DNA from: Chloroflexota bacterium
Lineage (GTDB): Bacteria > Chloroflexota > UBA6077
Reading direction: 5' to 3'
Assembly (NCBI GenBank): GCA_021806765.1
Contig: JAJZQR010000127.1
Location: forward strand, 1 to 14,026
Length of the DNA: 14,026 nucleotides
The notes under the pieces were generated by a model. The model was given only the letters and a program-made list of their open reading frames with translations. It did no database searches and was not told where the DNA came from. Numbering within the stretch: the first letter of the stretch is position 1; the number at the start of each line of letters is the position of its first letter. The position numbers and the translations under genes were made by a program. This document shows positions 1-14,026 of the stretch, in pieces.

Positions 1-853
1 AAGCCATAATCCCCGCAACGTTTCCGGCCGTGAAGGTGCGACGACGAAAGAGCGACAGGTCCACCAGCGGCTGCTCCAGCCTCGCCTCGACGACGAAGAA
101 GGCGGCCGTGAGAAGAACGAAGGCGGACCCCAACAGCAGCACCAGTGGGGAGATCCAGCCGACCTCGGGGCCCAGTGTCAGGGCCATCAGCAGGGCCAGG
201 AGGGCCAGGACGGAAAGGACGGCACCCGCAAAGTCGAACCGCTGCGGCGCTTGCCGCCGACCACCCGACAGGACACGCTCGTTCAGGATCACCCAGGCGG
301 CCGTCGTGCCGACGATCCCGATGGGCACGTTGACGTAGAAGATCCAGGGCCAGCCCAACGAGTCGATCAGCAGGCCGCCAACCGTCGGGCCAAGGGCGAA
401 CCCCGCTGCGACCACCGTACCGAGGCTCCCCAGGGCCGTGCCCCGCTGCCAGGGCGGGAAAACCGCGGTGACGATGGCGAAGCCGTTGGCCAGTATCATG
501 GCGGCGCCGACCGCTTGCAGTATCCGGAAGGCGATCAGCTCCTCCGCCGTGCGGGAGAAGCCGGAGAGACCCGACCCGAGAACGAAGATCAGGAAGCCCG
601 CGCTGTACACCCTCTTCCGGCCCACGATGTCCGACAGCCGTCCGAAGGGAAGCAGGAGGACCGTGATGGCCAGCAGGTATGCCTCCAGCACCCACTGGAC
701 GAACAACAGACTGGTGTTCAGGTCCTCCAGGATGGTGGGCAGGGCGATGTTGACGATGCTGGCGTCCAGGGTCGCCATCAGGACCCCGACGCCGACCGTG
801 GCCAGAACCCACCACTTGTGGTTCTCCCCCCCGAAGAGCCGCTCTTCCTGCAC
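1..853 (-). CDS. DHA2-family MFS multidrug exporter, N-terminal part (runs off left edge)
   Basis: Reading the minus strand from a GTG at 853 gives an open frame of 284 codons with no stop before the window edge. The product looks like a proton-driven drug exporter of the EmrB/QacA (DHA2, normally 14 membrane helices) group in the cytoplasmic membrane. Visible motifs are the helix-1 signature LDASIVNIALP (residues 29-39), motif A GRLSDIVGRKR (71-81), a motif-B-like stretch RILQAVGAA (110-118) and antiporter motif C GFALGPTVGG (151-160), followed by more hydrophobic helices separated by a charged loop ending FRRRTF. The start is preceded by AAGGAGG (865-871) with about 11 nt spacing; an alternative GTG lies at 895. 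It is transcribed divergently from the GH130 gene. The substrate cannot be read from sequence. The C-terminal ~40% is outside the window. Confidence 0.92.
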   Translation of the reverse strand, partial: MQEERLFGGENHKWWVLATVGVGVLMATLDASIVNIALPTILEDLNTSLLFVQWVLEAYLLAITVLLLPFGRLSDIVGRKRVYSAGFLIFVLGSGLSGFSRTAEELIAFRILQAVGAAMILANGFAIVTAVFPPWQRGTALGSLGTVVAAGFALGPTVGGLLIDSLGWPWIFYVNVPIGIVGTTAAWVILNERVLSGGRRQAPQRFDFAGAVLSVLALLALLMALTLGPEVGWISPLVLLLGSAFVLLTAAFFVVEARLEQPLVDLSLFRRRTFTAGNVAGIMA

Positions 854-981
854 CCTCTGCCGATCCTCCTTGCCCAACCACCACCGCCCTTCCACGCAAG
901 CCCTATTCCCGCTCTACCCCGACCTCTTGCCTCGCCTCTACCTTCAGTTCGATAGCCCGTACGGCGGGAACGGAGCAGCGA

Positions 982-1005
982 AGCGGTCGTTCAGGCGAGA
1001 CCGCT
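982..1005. repeat. Inverted repeat, 7-bp arms, candidate operator
   Basis: AGCGGTC (982-988) and GACCGCT (999-1005) are perfect reverse complements separated by 10 nt, giving a 17-bp centre-to-centre distance, close to two helical turns as expected for a dimeric regulator. It lies in the divergent promoter region of the MFS exporter. No regulator gene is inside the window. It could also be a chance palindrome in GC-rich DNA. Confidence 0.35.
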
Positions 1006-1053
1006 AACTAGCCGTTTTCTTCGACAGCAATCGTGCAACCCCATTGGCTGGCA

Positions 1054-1070
1054 CAGGTGGCTGTCACCTG
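1054..1070. repeat. Inverted repeat, 6-bp arms, candidate operator
   Basis: CAGGTG (1054-1059) and CACCTG (1065-1070) are perfect reverse complements around a 5-nt centre. It sits 65 bp upstream of the GH130 start. Short arms make this weak on its own. Confidence 0.25.
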
Positions 1071-1134
1071 AGGCTGATGGCACGTCGACTGCATCAATGT
1101 CGTTCAAGAAAGCCGACGGAAGGTGCGACGACGA

Positions 1135-2094
1135 ATGAGACAGGAGTTCTTCACACGCTACGGACCGAGGCCTATCCTCACACCCGGTGACCTGCCCTTC
1201 AAAGCCAACGCCGTCCTGAACCCGGGCGTTGCCCTGGTGGACGGAGAGGTGGCGCTGCTGCTGCGGATCGAGGACAGGCGGGGGATCTCCCACGTTCACG
1301 TGGCCAGGAGCGCCAACGGGGTGGACGGCTGGCGCATCGCGGAAAGGCCGCTGTTGCAGGCTGATTCGCCGGGCCACCCCTTCGAGGAGTGGGGGTGTGA
1401 GGATCCGCGAGTGACGCAGATCTCACCGAAGAAGTGGATCATCGCCTACACAGCCTATTCTCGATACGGGCCCGCCGTCGCCCTCGCGACGACCACCGAT
1501 TTCGAGACTGTGACCCGTATCGGGACCGTTCTCTCGCCCACCAATAAGGACGCTGCGCTCTTCCCCCGGCAGTTCCACGGCCAGTGGATCATGCTGCACC
1601 GCCCGGTCACCGGCGGGCAGGAGCACATCTGGCACGTCAGTTCTCCCGACTTGAAGGACTGGACTCGACCGGGAGTCCTGCTACCGCAGCGCAGCGGTCC
1701 ATGGTGGGACGGCCTGCGAGTCGGCGTCGGGGCACCACCGATCCAGACCGACCAGGGATGGCTGCTAATCTATCACGGTGTGAAGGAGATGGGCGTTCGG
1801 CCCGTCTATCGGCTGGGGCTGGCGCTGTTGGACCTGGATAACCCCCGTAAGATGCTGGCTCGCGCCTCCGAGTGGGTCCTTGCGCCCGAGACCGATTACG
1901 AGCAGCGGGGCCTGGTCCCCAATGTGGTTTACAGCTGCGGGGCCATCGGCCGGGGGGACGAGCTGTGGATGTACTACGGGGCTTCAGACACGGTGATCGG
2001 CCTGGCGACCGCCAGGACGGCGGATCTCCTCGACTTTGTGCGGGAGAACGACTACCTCCACAGGGTGGGGCGCCAGAAGGGAATGGTCCCGTAA
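1135..2094 (+). CDS. GH130-family beta-mannoside phosphorylase/hydrolase-like protein
   Basis: A 319-residue protein of the GH130 five-bladed beta-propeller family, whose known members phosphorolyse or hydrolyse beta-1,2- or beta-1,4-linked mannosides. Family features seen: N-terminal PILTPGDLPFKANAVLNPG (13-31), GCEDPRV (87-93) holding the conserved acidic Asp90, NKDAALFPR (137-145), LHRP (154-157), GAPP (199-202) and YHG (213-215). Basic residues at the usual phosphate-binding places (Lys138, Arg156, His214) favour a phosphorylase, but this is from memory of the family. There is no signal peptide, so it acts in the cytoplasm. I chose ATG 1135, with GGAAGG at 1118-1123, over an in-frame GTG at 1123 that would abut the Shine-Dalgarno. 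The stop codon overlaps the ATPase start (TAATG), implying coupled translation. Length is typical of the family; the exact glycan is unknown. Confidence 0.88.
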   Translation: MRQEFFTRYGPRPILTPGDLPFKANAVLNPGVALVDGEVALLLRIEDRRGISHVHVARSANGVDGWRIAERPLLQADSPGHPFEEWGCEDPRVTQISPKKWIIAYTAYSRYGPAVALATTTDFETVTRIGTVLSPTNKDAALFPRQFHGQWIMLHRPVTGGQEHIWHVSSPDLKDWTRPGVLLPQRSGPWWDGLRVGVGAPPIQTDQGWLLIYHGVKEMGVRPVYRLGLALLDLDNPRKMLARASEWVLAPETDYEQRGLVPNVVYSCGAIGRGDELWMYYGASDTVIGLATARTADLLDFVRENDYLHRVGRQKGMVP

Positions 2095-4424
2095 TGGGAG
2101 GACAAGCTAAGCGGGTGCAAGGGTTGACGGCGGCTGAGGCCTCCGAGCTGCTGAAGCGCTACGGCCCGAACGAAGTCAGGGAAGAGCGAGAGAGCCCCTG
2201 GCGGGCCCTGGCCCGCAAGTTCTGGGGACCCGTGCCCTGGATGCTCGAGGCGGCCATCGTCCTAACGGTAGTCCTGGCTAGACTGGCTGACGCCGTTATC
2301 ATCTTCTTCCTCCTGGTCTTCAATGCCGCAGTGGGCTATGCCCAGGAGAATCGGGCAGGGAACGCCCTGGCACTGTTGCGAAAGCGGCTGGCGATCAACT
2401 CGCGGGTGCTCCGCGACGGACGATGGCAGCTGATCCCCGCACGGGAACTGGTGCCGGGTGATGCGGTGCACGTGCGTGTCGGCGACATCGTTCCGGCGGA
2501 CCTGCACTTGCTCGAGGGTGATCTGCAACTGGATCAGTCGGCCCTGACCGGAGAGTCTCTCCCGCGCGAGGCGTCCCCGCCAGATACCATCTACTCGGGG
2601 TCGATCGTCCAGCGGGGCGAGGCCACCGGCGAGGTGGTCTCCACCGGCGCCGCGACCTACTTCGGCAAGACGGCTCAACTGGTGCAAGCAGCACGCACGG
2701 CGACCCATCTGGAGACCACCATCTTCAGCATAGTCAGGTACTTGATGGTCATCGACGTGCTGCTGGTGGCCGCGGTGCTGGCCTTCGCCCTGCTGGTGGG
2801 GATCCCGCTGTTGGAGGTGCTCCCCTTCGCGCTGATCCTGCTCATCGCATCGGTGCCGGCTGCCCTACCCGCCACCTTCACCGTCGCTCAAGCTCTGGGG
2901 GCAGTGGAGATGGCCAGGCGCGGGGTACTGGTCACCCGTCTCTCGGCTATCGAAGAGGCAGCCATGATGGACGTGCTGTGTACCGACAAGACCGGTACCA
3001 TCACCACGAACCAGCTCACGCTGGGTGCCATCCGCGCCTACCCGCCCTTTACCGCGAGGCAACTGCTCGAACTGGGGGCCTTGGCCTCCGACTCGGCCAC
3101 GCAGGACCCCATCGACCTGGCGATCCTCCAGGCTCGATCGGACCAAGCCGGCGGCGGCGACTACGAGCGAGTATCCTTCACCCCCTTCGATCCGGCCACC
3201 AAACGGACCGAAGCCACAGCTCGACGGGAAGGCGAGGAGGTAAGGATCGTCAAAGGAATGCCCGAGATCGTTGCCTCCCTGTCCAGGGAACCGGCCGGGG
3301 ATCTGCCCCGGGATGTGGATGCCCTTGCAGCCAAGGGATACCGGGTTCTGGCCGTGGCCGCGGGACCGGAGGGCAACCTGCGCCTGGCCGGGCTGCTCGG
3401 CTTGATGGACCCGCCCCGTCCGGACTCGGCGAAGCTGATAGCCGAGTTGGCCAGGCTGGGCATTCGGGTGAAAATGGTTACCGGGGACACCGCTCCGACA
3501 GCGTTGGCCATTGCCAGGCAGGTGGGCATCGGCCAGCAGGTGTGCAGCCCTCCAGGACCGCAGGACGGAGCGCGGGTGGACTCCACTCGTTGCGACATCT
3601 TCGCCGGAGTCTATCCCCAGGATAAGTACAACCTGGTGCGTTCGCTGCAGCAGGCCGGGCACGTGGTCGGCATGACTGGGGATGGGGTGAACGACGCCCC
3701 GGCGCTGAAACAGGCCGAGGTGGGAACGGCCGTGGCCAGCGCCACCGATGTGGCCAAGGCAGCGGCCAGCATGGTGCTCACCACTCCAGGCCTGGTCGAC
3801 ATCGTCGGCGCGGTGGAGTCCAGCCGCAGGATCTACCAGCGAATGCTGACCTACACTCTGAACAAGATCATCAAGACCTTTCAGGTGGCTCTCTTCCTCA
3901 GCCTCGCCTTCTTCCTGACGCGTAGTTTCGTGATCACACCCTTTCTCATAGTCCTCCTGCTCTTCGCCAACGACTTCGTCACGATGTCGATCGCGACGGA
4001 CAACGTTGGCTATTCCTCGAAGCCAGACCGATGGCACGTCGGCTCCCTGATGGCCTCTTCCGGGTTGCTCTCCCTGGGGGTACTGGCCGAGTCCTTCCTT
4101 GTGCTCTACCTGGCCACCGACGTCTTCCGCCTGACCATTCCTCAGGTCCAGACCCTGGTGTTCACCATGCTGGTCTTCAGCGGCCAGGCAACGGTCTACC
4201 TGGTGAGGGTGCGTGGACACTTCTGGACGGCTCGCCCCAGCTGGCCGCTGATGATCGCCTCGGCCGCGGACATCGTCGTCGTCACCTTCCTGGCGAGCGT
4301 GGGAATACTGATGGCTGCGGTCGCGCTGCCGCTCGTACTGGCGGTCCTGGGGATCGCGGTGCTGTTCATGCTCTTGATGGATCCTGTCAAGCTAGCCGTC
4401 TTTCGCCTATTCGGGCTGGCCTAG
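2094..4424 (+). CDS. P-type ATPase, P3A (plasma-membrane H+-ATPase-like) cation pump
   Basis: A 776-residue membrane ATP-driven cation pump. Domains in order: cation-ATPase N-terminal region GLTAAEASELLKRYGPNEV (10-28); helices 1-2 (about 49-85) with Asn77 at the position of the plant H+-pump gatekeeper Asn; actuator loop TGES (152-155); helix-4 kink PAALP (255-259); phosphorylation site CTDKTGT with catalytic Asp298; hinge TGDGVND (528-534); and C-terminal helices from about 584, with an Asn-Asp pair (626-627) in helix 6. The helix-4 and DKTGT contexts match the P3A group rather than Ca2+, K+ or heavy-metal pumps. There are no N-terminal metal-binding domains and no long C-terminal autoinhibitory tail. 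An acid equivalent to the plant proton-carrying Asp of helix 5/6 is not evident, so the ion is not certain. The start is the ATG sharing bases with the upstream stop; an open reading frame extends further upstream but is inside the GH130 gene. Confidence 0.93.
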   Translation: MGGQAKRVQGLTAAEASELLKRYGPNEVREERESPWRALARKFWGPVPWMLEAAIVLTVVLARLADAVIIFFLLVFNAAVGYAQENRAGNALALLRKRLAINSRVLRDGRWQLIPARELVPGDAVHVRVGDIVPADLHLLEGDLQLDQSALTGESLPREASPPDTIYSGSIVQRGEATGEVVSTGAATYFGKTAQLVQAARTATHLETTIFSIVRYLMVIDVLLVAAVLAFALLVGIPLLEVLPFALILLIASVPAALPATFTVAQALGAVEMARRGVLVTRLSAIEEAAMMDVLCTDKTGTITTNQLTLGAIRAYPPFTARQLLELGALASDSATQDPIDLAILQARSDQAGGGDYERVSFTPFDPATKRTEATARREGEEVRIVKGMPEIVASLSREPAGDLPRDVDALAAKGYRVLAVAAGPEGNLRLAGLLGLMDPPRPDSAKLIAELARLGIRVKMVTGDTAPTALAIARQVGIGQQVCSPPGPQDGARVDSTRCDIFAGVYPQDKYNLVRSLQQAGHVVGMTGDGVNDAPALKQAEVGTAVASATDVAKAAASMVLTTPGLVDIVGAVESSRRIYQRMLTYTLNKIIKTFQVALFLSLAFFLTRSFVITPFLIVLLLFANDFVTMSIATDNVGYSSKPDRWHVGSLMASSGLLSLGVLAESFLVLYLATDVFRLTIPQVQTLVFTMLVFSGQATVYLVRVRGHFWTARPSWPLMIASAADIVVVTFLASVGILMAAVALPLVLAVLGIAVLFMLLMDPVKLAVFRLFGLA

Positions 4425-4469
4425 AACCATTATGGTGAAGCGCCTTCTTGCCCCACGAGGTTACGTACG

Positions 4470-4499
4470 GGCGTGAAGCCTGCGGCTACAGAGCACGCC
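4470..4499. terminator. Possible bidirectional terminator hairpin between convergent genes
   Basis: The 77-bp gap between two convergent genes contains GGCGTG (4470-4475) pairing with CACGCC (4494-4499), enclosing an inner AGCC-TGC-GGCT hairpin (4477-4487). Its location fits a shared terminator, but neither strand shows a clear T-run, so it is not a classical intrinsic terminator. Confidence 0.35.
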
Positions 4500-4501
4500 A
4501 T

Positions 4502-7351
4502 CTACCAGGTATAGATCGCCGTGTTGCCCCGGAAGATGACCCGGGCGAAAGCGTGATAGGGGGTCCCGTCCGCGGCCTTCTGCTGGGCGAAGAAGGTCAG
4601 GTGGATGATCCTCCCCAGCTCCTTCTTACCGTTCCGGAGGTTCTCAATGTCGTAGATCGGTACCCGCTCGCGGATGGCCGCCGGATCGAACCGATACACG
4701 AATCGGCCCCCTTCCACCGGCAGTTCCCCCTGATCCACCACGCAGCCAGGGGTGACGGCGGCGAAGTAGACCCGCTCGGCATTGCTGAACCCCTCGATGG
4801 CCAGCCCCTCCTCCGCCTTGAAGCTCTGCTGGTTCTTCAACGCCAGCTTCAGCCCGGTGGTCCCCTCGCGCTGGGGCTTGTCGATTACGTAGATGTAGCC
4901 GCCCTCCTCCGGGAGGCCCGGCACGTGGCCCGGGTACCCCTCCCAGTCCGACTGCACGGTACACACCCACAGGCCTGGCCGGTCCAGGGTGTACCGGTCG
5001 GGGCCCGCGTATGAGCCGTAGCCATCGCCGGTGCCGTCCCACTCCTTCACCACGTTGCCGTCGGGATCCTTCAGGGCGCAGTGGATGTGCACCGGCAGCA
5101 TGGGATCGATCTGGAAGGCCGGGGTGAAGGCGGTCCCCTGCTCGTACACCATGCCGGGGCGCATGGAAACAACCAGGAAGACCCGGAAGCTCTGCCCGTC
5201 GGCCCCCAGCAGATCCTCAGAACCGGGAGGGATGACCCGGTTGTTGTTGCTCCCCTTGGGCAGGATGAAGGCGGTGGCCATGTACCCGGCGTAGGAAGGG
5301 GTCTGGTCCTTGGGGCGGAGCACCACTCCGCCCAGGAGGCGGTAGGCGGTGCCCGGCATGTCACCGTTGTTGGTGGCCCCAAACTGGCCGCCGAAGTTGG
5401 TGGCGCTGGTGGGCCAGTAGGGAGCCCTCACCCCATCCTCGCCCACCAGGAAGCGGGACATGAAGCCCGGCCGCGGCCCCGCTCCGTAATAGTAGGCCAG
5501 GTCGGTGATGTACTCGGGATAGAGGTGGGGCGACAGGCCGTTGGAGGTAGCGATCCGAACGTTGGTATTGCCGATGGGCTGCCACCTGGGGTCGTACTTC
5601 TGGCCGCTGTTCTTGACCTCGTAGGTCAGGACCGGCTCGATCTTGTTGGCCCCCTCGCCCTCACTGGCGATCAGCAGGACGTCGCCGGCGTGGTAGGGGA
5701 AGTTGATGTGGTCCAGGTTGCGGAAGCCGTCGTTAGGCTCCACGAAGCCTTCGTAGTGGCTCTCTCCTCGCTCCACCAACTCCTTGCCCACCTTCACCAT
5801 CTTGCCGTGGGCGATCAGATTGCCGTCCGGCGGGTAGACCACCCCGGCGTGGCGCATGCTGCAGACCCACAGGTGGTTGTCGGCATCGGTGTAGGTGGCC
5901 AGAACCCGGGCGTGGTACTCGCCCGGCGCCTCCAGGACGAAGGAATTCATCCCCTGGGCGGCCCCGAAGATGCCCCCCGGTGTCGCCTTCCCACCGTAGC
6001 TGAGGGTCTTCACGGCCCCGGAATCGGAGTTGGGGTACAGGTCAACCTGTACCGTCACGTCGGCCGGCACCGCAGGGGAGAAGGCGATGTCCCGCCCGTA
6101 CCTGGCGCCCACCGGATAGGCCTGTCCCTGGAAGGTGGCGGTGGCCATGGTCAGCCGCTTGGCGATCCAGAAGTGGTAGCTACCGCCGCCCTGGTAGTGG
6201 TTGCCCCACCTGTCGGCGATCCATCCCTTCGCCACCACCGTGTAGCGGCCGTATCCGCCCGGCTTCCAGGAGGTGAACTTGGGATTACGGGTGGTGGGGT
6301 TCCGCCCCTTCCTATCGATGAAAGACGCCGTACCCAGGTCGGTGGTCTTGCCTGAGGGATCGATGACCTGGACCGATAGCTCGCCCGAGGCGAAGTTCCA
6401 GGGGATGTTGCGCAGTTCGTCGATGGCATCGACCCGGAAGTCCGGCTCCAAGCTGTAGCCGATCCTGTTCCCCCCACCGTCGTAGAGGGGAAGGATTACC
6501 TCGTCCGGGATGATGTTGCGGTCGGAGAGGGCAAAGTGACCCTTATCCTCGTCGGCCACCACTCCGGTGTAGCCGTTGGAGTTGTACTGCCCCAGCAGCA
6601 CCCAGTAGAGGTGCCTGGATATCTGGGTGGCATCCACCGATCGTCCTGCCATGTCGGTCCCGTTGCAAGGGATGGTGGGCGAATAGATCATCGACTTCCC
6701 ATCGGGGTAGCGCGGCCGGTTGGCGAACGCCTCAGCGTTCAGGCTGTAGGAGCGCTTGCTGGCGACGAGCCCGAAGTCGAAGCGGAGCCGGTAGATCCCA
6801 GGGGGGATGTCCCCGGGCAACGGGATATCCAGGACGAAGTGGGCATACTGGGAGGAATCGCTCGCCTGCAGATCCCGAACGGGCAGCCGGCGGAGCTGAT
6901 CGACAGGATTCCTGTGCCGGGCCCCGGTGCTCTTGCTGATGGCTCCGGTGTTGCCCCCCTCGATGGCAAGACCGGCCGGGGTCAGCAACGTCGACATCCT
7001 CTCATCTCCGGGGAGCCGCAACAACCCCTGGGGATCGAAGCAGCGCTCCGAGGTCACCAGCATCTGCACCGTGTCGACCGCGAACCCGGCGGACCCCATC
7101 GCGCCGATATAGCCCGGGGAGAGGTGCAGGAACAGGTCTACGTGCACCGTGCTCCCCGGCTGCCATACGGCCGGAGAAAACTTCACGTCGGCCCGCCAGT
7201 CCCCGAAGTCGGTGTGGCCTCCGTCGCTGAACTGCAGATCGCCGTCGGCCGCTTGAGCCGGCCTCTCTGTCCATACGATGGGGATAGATCCGGCCAGACC
7301 AGCCAGGGGTATGGCAGCAAGGGACTTAAGAAATCGCCTTCGCGTCCACAT
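4502..7351 (-). CDS. Large Tat-exported protein of unknown function
   Basis: A 949-residue protein I do not recognise. It opens with a twin-arginine signal: TRRRFLKSL (3-11), a hydrophobic stretch to about residue 27 and a likely cleavage site after AQA (residues 32-34), so it should be folded in the cytoplasm and exported, often a sign of a bound cofactor or metal. The rest is soluble and looks beta-rich, with many Gly, Pro, Asp and aromatic residues and no membrane anchor at the C-terminus, which ends in AIYTW. Two stretches resemble each other: FSPAVWQPGSTVHVDL (about 58-73) and FSPAVPADVTVQVDL (about 423-437), hinting at repeated Ig-like or other beta-sandwich domains. The start is ATG 7351 with GGAGG five nt upstream; an in-frame extension to 7450 lacks such a site. 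The gene stands alone, divergent from the peptidase, with its own promoter and probable operator. Confidence 0.85.
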   Translation of the reverse strand: MWTRRRFLKSLAAIPLAGLAGSIPIVWTERPAQAADGDLQFSDGGHTDFGDWRADVKFSPAVWQPGSTVHVDLFLHLSPGYIGAMGSAGFAVDTVQMLVTSERCFDPQGLLRLPGDERMSTLLTPAGLAIEGGNTGAISKSTGARHRNPVDQLRRLPVRDLQASDSSQYAHFVLDIPLPGDIPPGIYRLRFDFGLVASKRSYSLNAEAFANRPRYPDGKSMIYSPTIPCNGTDMAGRSVDATQISRHLYWVLLGQYNSNGYTGVVADEDKGHFALSDRNIIPDEVILPLYDGGGNRIGYSLEPDFRVDAIDELRNIPWNFASGELSVQVIDPSGKTTDLGTASFIDRKGRNPTTRNPKFTSWKPGGYGRYTVVAKGWIADRWGNHYQGGGSYHFWIAKRLTMATATFQGQAYPVGARYGRDIAFSPAVPADVTVQVDLYPNSDSGAVKTLSYGGKATPGGIFGAAQGMNSFVLEAPGEYHARVLATYTDADNHLWVCSMRHAGVVYPPDGNLIAHGKMVKVGKELVERGESHYEGFVEPNDGFRNLDHINFPYHAGDVLLIASEGEGANKIEPVLTYEVKNSGQKYDPRWQPIGNTNVRIATSNGLSPHLYPEYITDLAYYYGAGPRPGFMSRFLVGEDGVRAPYWPTSATNFGGQFGATNNGDMPGTAYRLLGGVVLRPKDQTPSYAGYMATAFILPKGSNNNRVIPPGSEDLLGADGQSFRVFLVVSMRPGMVYEQGTAFTPAFQIDPMLPVHIHCALKDPDGNVVKEWDGTGDGYGSYAGPDRYTLDRPGLWVCTVQSDWEGYPGHVPGLPEEGGYIYVIDKPQREGTTGLKLALKNQQSFKAEEGLAIEGFSNAERVYFAAVTPGCVVDQGELPVEGGRFVYRFDPAAIRERVPIYDIENLRNGKKELGRIIHLTFFAQQKAADGTPYHAFARVIFRGNTAIYTW

Positions 7352-7480
7352 GGTGTCCTCCAAGAGCCGTCCGGAGCGGCGAGATAGCCGTCCAGGACAG
7401 AAACGAAATCGTCGAGGGATCCGCCAGGGAGGAGCACTTCTCCTGTTCAACTACTATTCGGCAGCGAGGGCATTCAGCTT

Positions 7481-7497
7481 GATACCATACTGGTATC
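7481..7497. promoter_or_regulatory. Probable repressor operator (perfect 7-bp inverted repeat)
   Basis: GATACCA (7481-7487), TAC, TGGTATC (7491-7497) form a perfect palindrome with a 3-nt centre. On the minus strand it falls at roughly +3 to +19 relative to the start predicted from the promoter at 7506-7534, the classic place for a repressor of the Tat-exported protein gene. The ATACCA/TGGTAT half-sites resemble those bound by some GntR-type repressors, but the regulator is not in the window. Confidence 0.55.
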
Positions 7498-7505
7498 GGG
7501 AGCAG

Positions 7506-7534
7506 ATTATGGCGATGGTTGCCTCACATTACAA
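7506..7534 (-). promoter_or_regulatory. Sigma-70-type promoter for the Tat-exported protein
   Basis: On the minus strand, -35 TTGTAA (7534-7529, 4 of 6 consensus) is followed after exactly 17 nt by -10 CATAAT (7511-7506, 5 of 6). Transcription would begin near 7499, giving a leader of about 148 nt before the ATG at 7351. The region is locally AT-richer than its surroundings. Confidence 0.5.
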
Positions 7535-7612
7535 GGCTGTTCCCCTCTTTCGAGAGGATAGTCGCTGGCAACACATGGAATGTACGGTCTGAGAGGGGAG
7601 CCGATCGCGAGA

Positions 7613-7644
7613 GTAGGGGACAGCCCGCAGGATCTGGCCCCTAC
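7613..7644. repeat. Inverted repeat, 7-bp arms, upstream of peptidase
   Basis: GTAGGGG (7613-7619) and CCCCTAC (7638-7644) are perfect reverse complements with an 18-nt spacer. They lie just upstream of the candidate peptidase promoter. They could be a two-turn-spaced regulator site or a hairpin in a longer transcript; no function can be read from it. Confidence 0.3.
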
Positions 7645-7660
7645 AGCTTCTTTCCACCCC

Positions 7661-7690
7661 TTGCCCTGACCCGGGGGTTGCGTGTAGGAT
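7661..7690 (+). promoter_or_regulatory. Weak candidate promoter for the M20 peptidase
   Basis: TTGCCC (7661-7666, 4 of 6) and TAGGAT (7685-7690, 4 of 6) are 18 nt apart, giving a start near 7697 and a leader of about 70 nt. A TTGACA at 7733-7738 further down has no -10 box before the gene. The match is modest and could be chance. Confidence 0.3.
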
Positions 7691-7764
7691 TCCGCCCACT
7701 TCCGGTCGCCCAAGGACCGACCCTCGACCGTTGACAGCCGTCAGCACAAGCAAGGAGGTTTGCC

Positions 7765-9108
7765 GTGCAGGACGTCTTCCAGTACGTGGATGCCCACCGC
7801 GACCAGTCGCTCCAGGAGCTGTTCACCCTGCTGCGCCAGCCCAGCATCAGCACCCAGAACGTGGGGGTGGTGGAGACCGCCCAGATGCTGGCCGGCATGA
7901 TGCGGGAGGCCGGCATCGAGACCACCGTCTACGAGACCAACGGCTTTCCGGTGGTGTACGGCGAGCTTCGAGCCACCGGCCCGGCACCGACCCTCCTGAT
8001 CTACGGCCACTACGACGTGCAGCCGCCTGAGCCGCTGGAGCTGTGGAACACCCCTCCCTTCGAGCCCACCATCGTGAACGGCCGCATCTACGGCCGTGGC
8101 GCCGGCGACAACAAGGGACAGCTGTTTACCCACATCAAGGCGGCGCAGTCCTTCCTCCAGGCCCGAGGTGGGGTGCCCATCAACCTGAAGTTCCTCTTCG
8201 AGGGCGAGGAGGAGATCAGCAGCCCCAGCCTGCTCCCCTTCATCGAGTCCCACCGCGAGTTGCTGAAGGCCGACGCCGCCCTCACGGCCGATGCCCCGGG
8301 GCACCAATCGGGCAGGCAGCAGATCAACTGCGGTCTGAAGGGGATGTGCTACGTGGAGATCCGGGCCAGGGGGGCCAATAAAGACCTCCACTCCATGCGG
8401 GCGCCCATGGTCCCCAACGCGGCCTGGAAGCTGGTCTACGCCCTGGCCTCCCTGAGGACCCCGGACGGCCGGGTGCTCATCCCGGGCTTCTACGACAACG
8501 TTCGCCGGCCCAATGCCGCCGAACTGGCGGCCGTGAAGGAGATCCCAAACGACGCGGCAGAGCAGCGAGCCCTGCTGGAGGTGGAGGAGTTCATCGGCGG
8601 GGACGAGGGCTACTACCACAACTTCGTCTTCGGCAACAGCTGCAACATCGCCGGCCTCACCTCGGGCTACCAGGGAAAGGGGAAGAAGACAGTCCTTCCC
8701 TGCCGGGCTTCGGCCAAGATCGACTTCCGGCTGGTCCCCGATCAGACCCCGGAGGAGATCCTGGAGAAGTTGAAGGCTCACTTGAAGAACAGCGGCTTCG
8801 GCGACCTGGAGGTGGAGTTCCTGGGCGGGCTCAATCCATCCCGAACCCCCGTGGATCATCCCTACGTCCAGACGGTGGCCCGGGCCGTCCGCTTTGCCAC
8901 AGGGAAAGAGCCGATCCTGAGCCCCAGCATGGGGGGCAGCGGGCCCGACCACCTCTTCACCGGCGTCCTGGGGCTGCCCAGCGTCTGGCTACCCCTCAGC
9001 CCCCACGACTCCAACAACCACGCCCCCAACGAGAGCATCCTGCTGGAGGGCTTCTTCGAGGGGATCAAGATCAGCGCGGCCGTCATGGAGGAGATGAGCA
9101 AGAGGTAG
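7765..9108 (+). CDS. M20-family dipeptidase (ArgE/DapE/ACY1/CPG2-type metallopeptidase)
   Basis: A 447-residue cytoplasmic zinc peptidase of the carnosinase-like branch of family M20, expected to split dipeptides or short peptides. Metal ligands and catalytic residues are all visible: His82 and Asp84 in YGHYDVQPP, Asp115 in [10 protein letters not shown], the general base Glu149 and metal ligand Glu150 in EGEEEISS, Asp176 in ADAPG, and His419 in SNNHAPNE. The lid/dimerisation region spans roughly 190-310 with the conserved LHSM. The GTG start is set by AAGGAGG (7752-7758) six nt upstream. There is no signal peptide. It precedes a carbinolamine dehydratase by 50 bp and a peptide ABC importer, so it probably hydrolyses imported peptides. 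It could instead act on an N-acylated amino acid; family membership itself is secure. Confidence 0.95.
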
Positions 9109-9158
9109 CGCCTCTTCGGGTCCGGGTCGTGCGATGTCTCCGACAGGAGGCAAACAGC

Positions 9159-9509
9159 ATGGACAATCTGAACGAGATGAAGTGCGAGGTGTGCCAGGTG
9201 GGGGTGCCCACCGCAACCGAAGAGGAGATCGACCAGTACCGGCAGCAAACCCCCGACTGGCAGGTCGTCGAGAGGGAAGGTGTGAAGCAGCTGGAGAGGG
9301 TCTTCCAGTTCGTCGATTTCCAGCAGGCTATGGTCTTCACGAATCAGGTGGGGGAACTGGCGGAGGCGGAGGGCCACCACCCGAAGCTCTGCACCGAGTG
9401 GGGAAAGGTCACCGTCACCTGGTGGACCCACAAGATCAAGGGGCTGCACCGCAACGACTTCATCATGGCGGCAAAGACCGATCAATTGTACTTCTATTTG
9501 CCCGGATAA
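9159..9509 (+). CDS. phhB: Pterin-4a-carbinolamine dehydratase
   Basis: A 116-residue protein of the PCD/DCoH family, which dehydrates 4a-hydroxytetrahydrobiopterin so that the pterin cofactor of aromatic amino acid hydroxylases can be recycled; some bacterial members have been linked to molybdopterin metabolism. The family signature is complete: His73-His74-Pro75 (EGHHPKL), Trp81, Thr90-His91 (WTHKIKGL) and Asp100 (RNDF). An N-terminal Cys pair (Cys9, Cys12) precedes the first helix, as in many bacterial members. ATG 9159 is chosen because AGGAGG lies 8 nt upstream; an in-frame GTG at 9129 has no such site. It follows the dipeptidase by 50 bp and is probably co-transcribed with it. No phenylalanine hydroxylase is in the window. 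Confidence 0.94.
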
Positions 9510-9538
9510 TATAAGCTCGTAATCTCCTGCTTACCATC

Positions 9539-9567
9539 TTGACAGTTTCTCGAACCACACCTACAAT
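9539..9567 (+). promoter_or_regulatory. Near-consensus sigma-70 promoter of the ABC importer operon
   Basis: TTGACA (9539-9544, 6 of 6 consensus) and TACAAT (9562-9567, 5 of 6) are separated by exactly 17 nt. Transcription would start near 9574. This is the best promoter match in the window and separates the importer operon from the upstream peptidase-phhB pair. Confidence 0.7.
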
Positions 9568-9774
9568 GTGCCGCACGGTGTGACGAGAGACCTTTCCGCG
9601 GCGGCTTCTGCTCAGAGAACCTGCCGCGTCCGGCCAGCACTTTTCCCATTTCCCGCAAGACCGGTTCTTCCACTCTTTTCTTCAGCCTGGCTTAGTCTAC
9701 TCGTTCTCGCCACGTTCACCCGTAGTCGAAGGATCCCTGCAACCAGCGGCGGCAGTCACCCACAACCGCAGTCT

Positions 9775-9799
9775 ATCTGTTACCGAAACAGTCACAGAT
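9775..9799 (+). promoter_or_regulatory. Competing hairpins / inverted repeat just before the SBP ribosome binding site
   Basis: The CTGT at 9777-9780 can pair in two exclusive ways: CTGTT (9777-9781) with AACAG (9787-9791), or ATCTGT (9775-9780) with ACAGAT (9794-9799). Both are perfect and end 5-13 nt before the Shine-Dalgarno GGGAGG (9805-9810). It may control translation, or serve as a protein site; stems are short, so this is tentative. Confidence 0.25.
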
Positions 9800-9816
9800 C
9801 GCTTGGGAGGAGAAGC

Positions 9817-11604
9817 ATGACCAGGGATTCCGGCACACCTCAGAACCACGAAGAACCGAACGATGGGACCACCGCCCGGCCTTTGAGCCGGCGGGATTTC
9901 CTCAAGCTCGGCGCCGCCCTCGGCGCCGCCAGCTCTTTCGGCGGCCTCCTGGCAGGCTGCGCCACCAGCCCCAGCAGTTCCAGCAGCAATACCCCTCAAG
10001 CAGCGTCGGGCCAGGCGCCCGCCCCGGCGAAGAACCTGCCCGAGGAGCGGAAGATCCGGGAGCTGGAGCTGGTCATCACCACCGCCGACTACGACCCGGT
10101 CCGCTACGAGTTCGGGCTGATGATCGCCGAGAACTGGAAGAAGTTGGGCTTCGGCGTGAAGGTCACCCCCATGGAGTGGTCGCGCATCGTGCAAACCTGC
10201 CTCACGGAGCACGAGTACGACGCCTTCACCCTCAACTGGGCGGGGCAAGCGGAGCGGATCGATCCCGACTTCTTCGCCTACATGGTGCTTCACTCCTCCC
10301 AGGTCGGCAAGGGGCAGCAGAACCACAACGGCTATCAGAGCAAGGAGTACGACCAGTACGCCGAAGCGCAGCGCACCACCATGGACACGGAGGAGCGCAA
10401 GAAGGCGGTCTTCAAGTGCCAGGAGATCTTCGCCAAGGACCAGCCCCACACCCCCATCGCCACCCGTAACCAGCTTATGCCCTACAACGATCGGGACTGG
10501 GAGGGCTGGTCCCCGATGATGGGCGAAGGGCTCAACTCCCTCTGGAACTTCGTCAGCATCAAGCCCAAGACCGCTCGCAAGACCCTAAAGTGGGGCTATC
10601 CAAGCGACGTCACGACCCTCAACCTCATAGCCGCCCTGGCCAACCACGACTTCCAGACCCTGCGGCTGATCTACGACCGGCTGATGCAGATCGACTCCAA
10701 GGGCGTGCCTCAGAAGTGGGCGGCCGAGGACATCAAGGCTATCGACAACACCCACATCGAGGTGACCATTCGCTCGGGGATGAAATTCCACGATGGCAAG
10801 CCGGTCACGGCGGACGACGTCAAGTTCTCCTTCGAGTACCCGGCCAAGGTGAAGTCCGGCTACTTCATGGGGGTCGTCGAGCCGATCCAGGAGGTTGCCG
10901 TCGTCAACGATCGCACCGTGCGCTTCACCCTGAAACGCCCCTATGCCCCCTTCTTCGCCAACTGCCTCGGCCGGGTCTTTATCCTCCCCAAGCATATCTG
11001 GGAGGGGATCCCCGAGAAGGCTGGCCTCACCAAGGCCCAGGACTTCCCCAACACCCAGCCCGTCGGCAGCGGGATGTTCAAGATGGACTACTGGCGGCGC
11101 AACGAGGAGATGAAGCTGGTTCGCAACGACGATCACTTCATGAAGCCCGCCATCGACGGCATCATCAAGATCCCCTACGCCAACGTCCAGGGGATGGTGG
11201 CCGGCGTCCAGACCGGCGAGGCTGACTTCGGAGGATGGTGGATCCAGCCGCTGCAGATCCGCGAGCTGCAGCAATCCGCGCCGCACGTCAAGGTGGCGGA
11301 GGTGAGGGATCACGGCTACTACCACATCAACTACAACATGCGGCGTAAGCCCTTCGACGACCTGGCAATCCGGAAGGCGATGGCACATGCCATTCCCAAG
11401 CAGCTGATCATCGACCGATTGCTGGAAGGCCACGGCGAGATCAACCACAGCTTCATCGCCCCCGCCAACGAGACCTGGCACAACCCGAACGTGGAGAAGG
11501 TCGAGTTCAACATGGACACGGCACGGAAGATCCTGGCCGACGCCGGGTACGAGTGGGGCGCCGACGGCAGGGTGTACTTCCCCACCGGTAAGACCAACAG
11601 CTAA
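9817..11604 (+). CDS. Family-5 (Dpp/Opp-type) ABC substrate-binding Tat lipoprotein, apparently circularly permuted
   Basis: A 595-residue extracytoplasmic peptide-type binding protein. It starts with a Tat signal SRRDFLK (24-30) and lipobox LLAGC with Cys48, then a Ser/Pro/Ala linker. Segment order is unusual. Residues ~80-250 (LELVITTADYDP, KLGFGVKVTPMEW, EYDAFTLNWAG, NGYQSKEYDQY, EERKKAVFKCQEIFAKDQP, LWNF) match what is normally the C-terminal third of this family. Residues ~255-595 then match the normal N-terminal two thirds: LKWGYPSDVTTLNL (seam near 259), KFHDGKPVTADDVKFSFEY (from 323), ILPKHIWE, PVGSGMF, LVRNDDHF, PFDDLAIRKAMAHAI (from 512), and AGYEWGADGR near the end, exactly where the C-terminal third usually follows. 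ATG 9817 has GGGAGG six nt upstream. It is the first gene of the importer operon. All segments are present once, so it is likely functional. Confidence 0.9.
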   Translation: MTRDSGTPQNHEEPNDGTTARPLSRRDFLKLGAALGAASSFGGLLAGCATSPSSSSSNTPQAASGQAPAPAKNLPEERKIRELELVITTADYDPVRYEFGLMIAENWKKLGFGVKVTPMEWSRIVQTCLTEHEYDAFTLNWAGQAERIDPDFFAYMVLHSSQVGKGQQNHNGYQSKEYDQYAEAQRTTMDTEERKKAVFKCQEIFAKDQPHTPIATRNQLMPYNDRDWEGWSPMMGEGLNSLWNFVSIKPKTARKTLKWGYPSDVTTLNLIAALANHDFQTLRLIYDRLMQIDSKGVPQKWAAEDIKAIDNTHIEVTIRSGMKFHDGKPVTADDVKFSFEYPAKVKSGYFMGVVEPIQEVAVVNDRTVRFTLKRPYAPFFANCLGRVFILPKHIWEGIPEKAGLTKAQDFPNTQPVGSGMFKMDYWRRNEEMKLVRNDDHFMKPAIDGIIKIPYANVQGMVAGVQTGEADFGGWWIQPLQIRELQQSAPHVKVAEVRDHGYYHINYNMRRKPFDDLAIRKAMAHAIPKQLIIDRLLEGHGEINHSFIAPANETWHNPNVEKVEFNMDTARKILADAGYEWGADGRVYFPTGKTNS

Positions 11605-11642
11605 GTTTAGAGTGCGGTGGCTTGCCGCCGCTTTCCTTGAAC

Positions 11643-11667
11643 GTAGGGCAGGGCGCTCTGCCCTGCC
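11643..11667 (+). terminator. GC-rich hairpin after the SBP gene (attenuator or processing stem)
   Basis: GGCAGGGC (11647-11654) and GCCCTGCC (11660-11667) form a perfect 8-bp stem with a 5-nt loop; an alternative register pairs 11643-11651 with 11658-11666. No T-run follows, so complete termination is unlikely. In binding-protein importer operons such stems commonly protect the binding-protein message and lower permease expression. The 152-bp gap holds no gene. Confidence 0.45.
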
Positions 11668-11756
11668 GCCCTGCCTGACATTGCCCGGCGGGCGGCGGGG
11701 CACAGGGCCCCATCCTACATTTCGCAGACCCATCACGGCGACCCCGGAGTGAGACC

Positions 11757-12746
11757 ATGAAAAGCTCCCAAGGGCTTCGAGCCTTCATCCTCCGCCGCCT
11801 GGTCCAGATGGTGATCACCCTCTGGGTCCTCACCACCATTCTGTTCCTGATGTTCAGGCTGCTGCCGGGCGATCCCGCCTCCATGTACGTCGACGCTGCC
11901 CTGTCGGTGGAGGCGCAGCAGGCGGTTCGCGAGCAGTTCGGCCTGGACAAACCGATCTACCAGCAGTACTTGATCTACGTGGGCAACGTCGCCCACGGGG
12001 AGTTCGGCCGTTCCTTCTACTACCGCGTGCCGGTGGGGGACGTCATCGTCGACAAGCTGCTGGCGACGGTGATGCTGATGGGCACCTCCGTGATAGTGGC
12101 TTTCCTGCTGGGCACGCTGGGCGGCGCCGTCCTCGCCTGGAAACGGGGCTCCAAATTCGAGATCACGGGGCTGATAACGGCCCTATTCTTCCGCTCGGCA
12201 CCCGAATTCTGGACCGGCCTCATGGGCCTGATGATCTTCGCCTACTGGCTCCACTGGGTCCCAATCGGGGGCATGAACACCGTCGGGCAAGACCTGACCT
12301 CCTTTACCCAGAAGTACCTATCTCTGGACTTCCTGCGGCACCTGGTGCTGCCGGTGCTGGTGGCCGCCGGGTACTACCTGGCCACCCCCCTCCTGATCAT
12401 GCGCAACTCCATGCTGGAGGTGGTGGGTGAGGACTTCGTGGAGATGGCCAGGGCCAAGGGGCTCTCGGAGCAAGCGGTCATGTTCAGGCACGCCATGCGA
12501 AACGCCCTGCTGCCGGTGGTGACGGTGCTCACCCTGATGGTCGGCTTCGCCGTCGGCGGAGAGGTTCTGGTGGAGATCATCTTCCGGTGGCCCGGCATGG
12601 GCCGGGAGATGGTGCTGTCGGTGCAGCGCCACGACTACCCGGTGGCCCAGGCGAGCTTCTTAATCTTGGGCGTCATCGTCATCAGCATGAACTTCATCAC
12701 CGATCTGGTCTACGGGTGGTTGGACCCGCGGATCAGCTATTCCTAG
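11757..12746 (+). CDS. dppB: ABC importer permease, DppB/OppB family
   Basis: A 329-residue inner-membrane subunit of a peptide/nickel-type ABC importer. Helix 1 lies at about 13-33 and is followed by the family hallmark LPGDP; about five further helices follow. The cytoplasmic EAA loop that docks the ATPase is at about 224-253 (GEDFVEMARAKG then RHAMRNALLP). The C-terminal GWLDPRI is typical of this family. It starts at ATG 11757 with a modest GGAG upstream, 152 bp after the binding protein. The symbol denotes the family; dipeptide specificity is not shown by sequence. The stop codon lies inside an 8-bp hairpin. Confidence 0.93.
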   Translation: MKSSQGLRAFILRRLVQMVITLWVLTTILFLMFRLLPGDPASMYVDAALSVEAQQAVREQFGLDKPIYQQYLIYVGNVAHGEFGRSFYYRVPVGDVIVDKLLATVMLMGTSVIVAFLLGTLGGAVLAWKRGSKFEITGLITALFFRSAPEFWTGLMGLMIFAYWLHWVPIGGMNTVGQDLTSFTQKYLSLDFLRHLVLPVLVAAGYYLATPLLIMRNSMLEVVGEDFVEMARAKGLSEQAVMFRHAMRNALLPVVTVLTLMVGFAVGGEVLVEIIFRWPGMGREMVLSVQRHDYPVAQASFLILGVIVISMNFITDLVYGWLDPRISYS

Positions 12747-12751
12747 CTGAT
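12732..12751 (+). repeat. Perfect 8-bp hairpin spanning the dppB stop codon
   Basis: ATCAGCTA (12732-12739), loop TTCC, TAGCTGAT (12744-12751) form a perfect stem; the second arm begins with the TAG stop of the permease gene. It could stall ribosomes or protect the upstream message from degradation. Confidence 0.45.
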
Positions 12752-12767
12752 ACCGGGCAATGGCAGA

Positions 12768-12809
12768 GGTTTTGGGGACACCCCAAACCCCGCCATGGGG
12801 CTTCGCCCC
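12768..12809 (+). repeat. REP-like double hairpin in the dppB-dppC gap
   Basis: Two hairpins stand in tandem: GGTTT-T-GGGG (12768-12777) with CCCCAAACC (12781-12789), and GGGGC-TTC-GCCCC (12797-12809), followed by a CTGGACCCCCT stretch. The combination resembles dispersed GC-rich palindromic repeats found between genes in many high-GC bacteria. Whether this one is repeated elsewhere in the genome cannot be seen here. Confidence 0.4.
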
Positions 12810-12842
12810 CTGGACCCCCTGCAATCAAACGAGGATACTGGC

Positions 12843-13781
12843 ATGGCCCAAATCGCAACTGAAGTCGTAGCCAGACGGCCCCTGCCCCGCCGCAGCCGGT
12901 GGAAGGGGGTCCAGCGAGCCCTCAAGGGCATCACGGGCCAGATCGTGGTCCTGAGCAAGGACCGCCTCGGTCTGGCCGGCATGGCCATCATGGGCTTCTT
13001 CCTGCTGATGGCGATCTTCGCCCCCTGGCTGGCGCCCCACGACCCTATGGAGACCCTGATGCGGCCCGATGGAACCATGGCCAGGATGGACCCGCCCTCC
13101 ACCATCTTCCCCTTCGGCACCGATCTGATGGGCAGGGACATCCTCAGCCAGGTGATCATCGGCAGCCGGGTGGCATTGCTGGTGGGGATACTCTCGGCCG
13201 CCATGGTGGTCTTTATCGGCACCAACGTGGGGCTGCTGGCCGGCTACTACGGCGGCAAGATCGACGACCTGCTGATGAGGCTCACCGACATCGTCTACGG
13301 GGTACCCTTCCTCCCCTTCGCCGTCATCCTGGTGGCGCTGCTGGGGCCGGGTCTCCCCAACATCATCCTGGCCATCGTCCTTATCACCTGGCGCACCACC
13401 GCTCGGGTGGTTCGTTCCCAGGTGCTCACCCTGAAGCAGCGGGCCTTCATCGACGCCGCCCGCATCTCGGGGGCAGGGAACCTCCGGATCCTCTACCTGC
13501 ACATCGCCCCCAACGTCCTGCCCCTCTCCTTCGTCTACGGCGCCCTCTCCATGGGTTGGGCCATCCTGACGGAGGCCAGCATCAGCTTCCTGGGCTACGG
13601 TGACCCCCTGCTGATGAGCTGGGGCAAGATCCTGTTCAACGCCTACGTGGCTCAGGCAGTCACGACTGCCTGGTGGTGGGTTATGGCCCCTGGGCTGGCC
13701 ATCGTCCTGCTGGTGCTGTCGGGCTTCTTCATCAGCCGGGCCTACGAGGAGATCATCAATCCGCGACTACGGGAACGGTAG
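12843..13781 (+). CDS. dppC: ABC importer permease, DppC/OppC family
   Basis: A 312-residue second membrane subunit of the importer. A basic cytoplasmic N-terminus leads to helix 1 (about 40-62), then the family's extracytoplasmic loop with APHDPMETL and [15 protein letters not shown], which normally precede helix 2. The EAA loop is at about 200-224 ([11 protein letters not shown] then [10 protein letters not shown]). The C-terminal helix ends in INPRLRER, typical of the family. I chose ATG 12843, with GAGG 9-13 nt upstream, over an in-frame ATG at 12795 that lies inside the palindromic element. It pairs with the DppB-like subunit to form the channel. Confidence 0.93.
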
Positions 13782-13785
13782 CCCT

Positions 13786-14026
13786 ATGCTAGAAGTTCGC
13801 AACCTGAAGACCTACTTCAAGACCAAGGCGGGCTACGCCCACGCGGTCGACGACGTATCCTTCACCCTCCAGCCCGGCGAGAACTTTGGACTGGTAGGCG
13901 AGTCCGGCTGTGGCAAGACCACGGCCGCCAAGTCCATCATCAAGCTGCTGCCCCCCAACGGCCAGATCATGGGCGGGCAGATCCTGTTCAACGGCCGGGA
14001 CCTGGTATCCCTGACCCAGGAAGAGA
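13786..14026 (+). CDS. dppD: ABC importer ATPase, DppD/OppD family, N-terminal part (runs off right edge)
   Basis: Eighty codons are visible from ATG 13786, four nt after the DppC-like stop. The translation begins [20 protein letters not shown], the usual start of a peptide-importer ATPase, and has the Walker A motif GESGCGKT at 38-45, followed by [12 protein letters not shown] and the pre-Q-loop stretch FNGRDLVSL. It would energise transport at the inner face of the membrane. There is no clear Shine-Dalgarno, so it is probably translated by coupling to dppC. Signature, Walker B and the usual C-terminal oligopeptide-importer extension lie outside the window. Confidence 0.93.

Follow-up and report, generated by a model that had tools for sequence, protein, structure and literature searches.

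The gene at 9817..11604 of a 14,026-nucleotide stretch from a Chloroflexota bacterium (contig JAJZQR010000127.1, positions 1 to 14,026, forward strand; hereafter the window) raises the question of whether a family-5 solute-binding protein can work with its C-terminal third placed ahead of its N-terminal two thirds. Based on sequence comparison, we describe its 595-amino-acid (aa) product, labeled P0001, as belonging to a permuted subfamily of SBP_bac_5 (PF00496; cluster C) and not as an ordinary member. It is very probably a working solute-binding lipoprotein of an Opp/Dpp-type ATP-binding cassette (ABC) importer and a natural circular permutant of the cluster C fold. This explanation rests on the segment order, a confidently predicted complete fold, a family-wide order and break point, and the neighboring OppB, OppC and ATPase genes.

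The open reading frame (ORF) starts with an ATG at 9817, shortly 3' of GGGAGGAG, and ends with a stop codon at 11602-11604. It encodes 595 residues in one uninterrupted frame; the coordinates, frame and start given in an earlier note, which had proposed the permutation from the letters alone, are correct. Its features are as follows:

9817..11604, +: family-5 (cluster C) solute-binding protein of 595 aa in circularly permuted order, a predicted lipoprotein (sequence searches and predicted structures)
9817..9960, +: predicted twin-arginine translocation (Tat) lipoprotein signal with an RR pair (residues 25-26) and a LAGC lipobox (Cys48) (PF10518 TAT_signal, E 4.8e-06; lipobox read from sequence)
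10042..10569, +: canonical C-terminal third, now first, residues 76-251 (Pfam profile 260-366 for the front piece; model against 1xoc 355-519 and 1dpp 339-507)
10558..10581, +: seam of old C-terminus to old N-terminus, residues 248-255 (in the model, preceded by helix 242-247 and followed by strand 256-261)
10570..11601, +: canonical N-terminal two thirds, now last, residues 252-595
11542..11601, +: new C-terminus AGYEWGADGRVYFPTGKTNS (the opened loop), in whose tail Pro589 is conserved

The whole protein matches SBP_bac_5 with 246.2 bits (E 7.4e-73; cut-off 32.4), but it does not follow the canonical N-to-C order of this family. When both pieces were run separately, the front piece (residues 1-251) aligned to profile positions 260-366 of 368 (E 1.5e-10) and the rear piece (residues 252-595) to positions 3-286 (E 1.9e-61), which is the order the earlier note had claimed. 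NCBIfam models split the protein in agreement with Pfam, and in the solved chain 8efz query residues 252-584 correspond to chain residues 9-328 and residues 81-226 to 335-471. Two canonical relatives from other genomes (L022 and L026), used as a control with the same Pfam method, gave one stretch each (profile 2-352 and 2-355). Scored against 24 canonical ORFs (22 distinct), P0001 re-ordered canonically scored higher for 21, tied for three and lost for none, whereas the native order won against all 151 permuted proteins or ORFs, some loci being counted twice. Each segment is present once in P0001, and no duplicate segment hits were seen among the proteins scored. The Tat lipoprotein signal, likewise recognized earlier, and the lipobox listed above provide P0001 with the predicted export signal and anchor of cluster C binding proteins.

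In the AlphaFold model, residues 76-251 match DppA (1dpp) 339-507, which is the DppA C-terminus, and residues 255-588 match 1-345. The two parts thereby cover complementary stretches of one canonical chain with an overlap of ~7 residues. The front stretch modeled alone aligned to 1xoc 355-519 and 1dpp 339-507, so that the structure prediction gives the same two-piece match to canonical chains in 3D. The predicted local distance difference test score (pLDDT) of the monomer is high across both segments and the seam, and a sequential alignment of the model to 1dpp and 1xoc yields a template modeling (TM) score of 0.44-0.45 (query-normalized). The models predict the three-domain, two-lobed cluster C fold, both parts aligning to solved cluster C chains. 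Among the best 60 of 94 and the best 60 of 104 solved chains, none had a best stretch spanning both segments.

The domain names used here (domain I, domain III) are those in general use for the cluster C fold. In the structures of OppA and DppA the canonical termini are neighbors within domain I. The join of these old termini had been put at about a dozen residues and is shorter: only 4-8 residues separate the two segment models in 121/121 proteins (P0001 and its best 120 of 835 homologues), which is consistent with this proximity. At the new termini, the domain III loop from AGYxxxxDG to LEL has been opened.

Permuted relatives and their spread

All of the best 120 of 835 homologues share the permuted order (121/121 with the query). 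The homologues of identical order that the earlier note had suggested looking for thus exist, and while the permutation itself stands, the protein noted then does not stand alone but belongs to a widespread family. Because such homologues exist, the concern about misassembly is removed without recourse to raw reads. The break point is common to distant members, the Pfam match ending at profile position 284 in L048, L053 and L054 and at 286 in P0001. A search with a profile of distant permuted members returned, among the best 120 of 172 matches, 22 permuted proteins at the top followed by 98 canonical ones, with no intermediate.

Source-named carriers among the best 120 homologues include Metabacillus, Cytobacillus, Oceanobacillus and Caldalkalibacillus. 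Ten genes from plasmid records are also permuted, and their carriers are haloarchaea and Alphaproteobacteria: Halalkalicoccus, Natrialba, Natrononativus, Halorussus, Haladaptatus, Haloarcula, Nitratireductor, Maritalea, Ketogulonicigenium and Roseomonas. The plasmid sequences of Halalkalicoccus, Natrialba, Nitratireductor and Ketogulonicigenium are complete. Permuted genes also occur in bins assigned to the Delta-, Gamma- and Alphaproteobacteria, one Tissierellia and one Bathyarchaeota, although bins may contain foreign contigs. In one Deltaproteobacteria bin (G001, with locus L015 and others), the permuted profile has five matches with E values of 1e-80 or lower; one place in this bin (C193) is broken into pieces with stops. 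One 632-aa homologue (P0015) has an additional PF06808 domain label and may be a fused gene call.

The occurrence is patchy, with 6/299, 1/200, 1/299 and 5/198 carriers in the phyla of four centre genomes. As the centres G002, G003, G001 and G007 were fetched as carriers, the counts without these and the non-carrying centre G008 are 6/298, 0/199, 0/298 and 3/196. All are lower bounds, with at most four or at most seven candidates scored per genome under a strict cut-off. Canonical family-5 ORFs coexist with permuted genes in four genomes (G003, G004, G005 and G007). Pfam and NCBIfam flag P0001 through ordinary family-5 models only, and the named homologues among the matches listed are labeled substrate-binding protein, several as 'peptide/nickel transport system substrate-binding protein'. 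Since only such models and names are applied, the permutation is hidden in these annotations.

Neighboring transporter genes and ligand

The genes relevant to transport and ligand in the window are:

7765..9108, +: M20 metallopeptidase, upstream (PF01546)
11757..12746, +: OppB-type permease (PF00528 and PF19300)
12795..13781, +: OppC-type permease (PF00528 and PF12911)
13786..14025, +: start of an OppD-type ATPase, cut by the window end (sequence match; Walker motif read from the translation)

The P0001 gene is thus followed by a predicted operon with OppB/OppC-type permeases and an ATPase, an arrangement that it shares with cluster C proteins; the place of the second ATPase gene is outside the window. 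An OppB relative lies downstream in 11/11 genome loci (L001-L011; L009 shows the later segment only, cut by the contig end) and an OppC relative in 10/11, L006 ending first. Two permeases and one or two ATPase genes adjoin the permuted gene in 9/10 annotated plasmid loci. Because these genes recur beside the permuted gene, they mark P0001 as the predicted binding protein of an Opp/Dpp-type importer.

The dipeptide bound by E. coli DppA is held at its ends by Arg383 and Asp436 (precursor numbering), both of which also touch the DppB scoop loop (PMC12136057). These residues are not kept in P0001. At the Arg383 equivalent (position 90, extrapolated one residue beyond the aligned block) Arg occurs in 0/120 homologues, and at the Asp436 equivalent (position 144) Asp occurs in 0/120 and Arg in 81/120. 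Because of these counts, it is unlikely, as judged from the alignment, that P0001 binds its ligand in the way DppA binds dipeptides. A small peptide or an amide-like compound is the probable ligand. Genes of peptidase or amidase type are found near the permuted gene in 8/10 annotated plasmid loci, comprising M20, M28, M81, creatininase, hydantoinase/oxoprolinase, D-aminoacylase, gamma-glutamyl enzymes and amidohydrolase. Ten hand-picked neighboring ORFs from five other loci were varied (aminotransferase, sulfatase, aconitase, two-component regulators and others), and relatives of the M20 peptidase from the window were found in 3/5 genomes searched, at places other than the permuted genes. As the neighborhoods vary and were counted without a canonical control, the hydrolases give a hint only of a peptide or amide substrate, and a functional link between the M20 metallopeptidase and the binding protein is possible.

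Further elements of the window were recorded. A pterin-4a-carbinolamine dehydratase gene (9129-9509, +) lies between the M20 peptidase gene and the transporter operon, and a promoter-like site (11 of 12) lies at 9539-9567. A terminator-like hairpin at 11614-11631 (+) follows the binding-protein gene before OppB; two such hairpins were found against 1.6 expected in shuffles, which is not clearly above expectation. Further upstream are a GH130-type (glycoside hydrolase 130) gene with a P-type cation ATPase gene directly after it (1123-4424, +) and a gene for a ~980-aa protein (4502-7450, -) that has no match in Pfam at E 0.001 and whose start, MWTRRRFLKSLAAIPLAG, looks Tat-like from its sequence.

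Origin of the permutation and competing explanations

A single old permutation event followed by spread to many lineages is the simplest reading. It is favored, not proven, by the trees and also by the break point shared at profile positions 284-286. Permuted rows form one clade in 4/5 trees. In a 65-row tree (43 permuted and 22 canonical rows, segments in canonical order), a single branch separates both groups with a Shimodaira-Hasegawa-like approximate likelihood ratio test (SH-aLRT) support of 99; this tree took every second row of alignment A1, without truncated loci or those fetched twice. Trees of the separate segments also group the permuted proteins (support 97 for the large and 90 for the small segment). 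Two results weigh against this reading. With wider canonical sampling, the permuted rows of a 94-row tree are interrupted by a canonical protein on a long branch (P0240), and in a 93-row tree without P0240 the permuted clade has a support of only 48. The 94-row tree comprised 11/22 new permuted rows (every second), 33/98 new canonical rows (every third) and 11 of the earlier P rows, and left out the long-branch rows L054, L035, L037, L038 and L044.

The same two results leave room for several separate permutations at one hinge loop, and the loop preceding LEL may be weak by nature. We consider such repeated origins unlikely but the most serious competitor, given the one clade at 99 in the 65-row tree and the same break point in distant members. 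Moreover, enforcing a permuted clade on the 94-row set gave a log-likelihood 8.34 above that of the free search and was not rejected (p-value of the approximately unbiased test, p-AU, 0.734), which on its own is no proof of a clade.

An improbable second competitor is a domain-swapped dimer, in which the front segment of one chain completes the body of another. The monomer prediction is compatible with such a swap, and a domain-swapped binding protein, SP0092, is known (PMC5287374). Against it stand the confident monomer model, with high pLDDT through the segments and the seam, and TpMglB-2, a characterized permuted binding protein that is monomeric (PMC4990184).

Segment order by itself cannot tell a permutation from a fusion of the C-terminal fragment of one binding protein with the N-terminal fragment of an unrelated one. 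A fusion is nevertheless highly improbable, as both separate segment trees group the permuted proteins and both parts match complementary stretches of one canonical chain. Equally little weight falls on a sensor or scavenger uncoupled from transport: one permuted gene on a Haloarcula plasmid (L054, 6848-8644; on a very long branch in the 65-row tree) lacks permease genes beside it, but permease genes adjoin in the window and at nearly every other locus examined. An assembly or gene-calling artefact, with two binding-protein copies collapsed or misjoined at ~10570, has a negligible probability in view of the identical order in 120/120 best homologues, including those of Metabacillus, Cytobacillus and Oceanobacillus, and on the four complete plasmid sequences; as a general cause, it is ruled out by these independent homologues.

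A route through tandem duplication, as suggested in the earlier note, is plausible. Among the proteins scored, none had two hits to either segment model, as a duplicated remnant or an intermediate (A-B-A, B-A-B) would; in the second profile search set, nine canonical proteins had a second segment-A hit at chance level (5.5-8.2 bits). As no intermediate or remnant was found, we only infer this route.

Anchor geometry and known binding proteins

As far as is known, canonical lipoprotein members are all anchored at the domain I end. As a natural permutant, P0001 would be exported by the Tat pathway and then lipidated at Cys48. Its old termini would be bridged in domain I by the short stretch described above, while its new termini would lie in the domain III loop that precedes the LEL strand. 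The lipid anchor would thus be shifted from domain I to domain III, and the tether would emerge from the other lobe than in canonical lipoprotein binding proteins. The permuted protein may still close on its ligand and pass it to OppBCDF. By analogy, an adaptation to tethering is a hypothesis for the reason behind the permutation.

Several observations weigh against the explanation of P0001 as a working permutant of an importer. A simple lipobox is present in only 67/121 proteins and an RR motif in only 52/121, so the anchor argument cannot cover the whole family. Three of the 24 canonical ORFs score equally in both orders, and L054 lacks adjoining permeases. No family member whose ligand has been measured or whose structure has been solved turned up among the chains compared (best 60 of 94 and best 60 of 104). 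As for the ligand, the Arg383 equivalent lies just outside the aligned block, and canonical AppA, as read from the alignment, also lacks an Asp at the Asp436 position, so its absence does not set the permuted family apart.

Both segments of P0001 are homologous to DppA, OppA, AppA and NikZ (family 5, cluster C), and the predicted fold matches theirs in two pieces. In P0001, however, the last third comes ahead of the first two thirds and the termini lie in a different lobe. The E. coli DppABCDF transporter is of the same type and serves as a reference for a cluster C protein seated on DppB and DppC (PMC12136057), but DppA is canonical in order. Like P0001, Tp0684 (TpMglB-2) of Treponema pallidum is a binding lipoprotein with a natural circular permutation, and it too has relatives that share its topology; its authors propose the name Type Ic or Cluster Bc and suggest tethering adaptation as a possible reason (PMC4990184). 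Unlike P0001, it has a cluster B (type I) sugar-binding fold in which the first three strands of the N-lobe sheet have moved to the chain end (PMC4990184). P0001 shares the permutation with Cluster Bc but not the cluster B fold, its structure matches being cluster C chains. At E 10, the Pfam matches of the whole protein are limited to SBP_bac_5, the TAT signal and Gag_p24, the last of them sub-threshold.

Permuted binding proteins are thus already known in cluster B, whereas a permuted cluster C family was not found described: no such protein was recognized among the open-licence papers listed, where TpMglB-2 was the only permuted binding protein found. In the main text of CIRPIN (PMC12667903), the terms transporter, periplasmic, solute and substrate-binding are absent.

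For annotation, the finding exposes a practical gap, as the rearrangement is invisible in Pfam, NCBIfam and source annotations. Few large multi-domain proteins that depend on conserved partners are known to be natural circular permutants. This family offers more than 100 relatives, canonical controls in the same genomes and an adjoining transporter. Since the anchor of canonical lipoprotein members sits at the end in domain I, the family allows a test of which lobe needs the tether and of how a binding protein docks. We tentatively propose, as a possibility that is less likely than not to hold in full, that one ancient permutation founded an undescribed cross-domain cluster C clade ('cluster Cc') and that selection kept the altered docking geometry brought about by the shift of the new N-terminus, and in lipoprotein members of the anchor, from domain I to domain III. 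If so, the lobe that is tethered above the OppBC permease would be reversed in this family.
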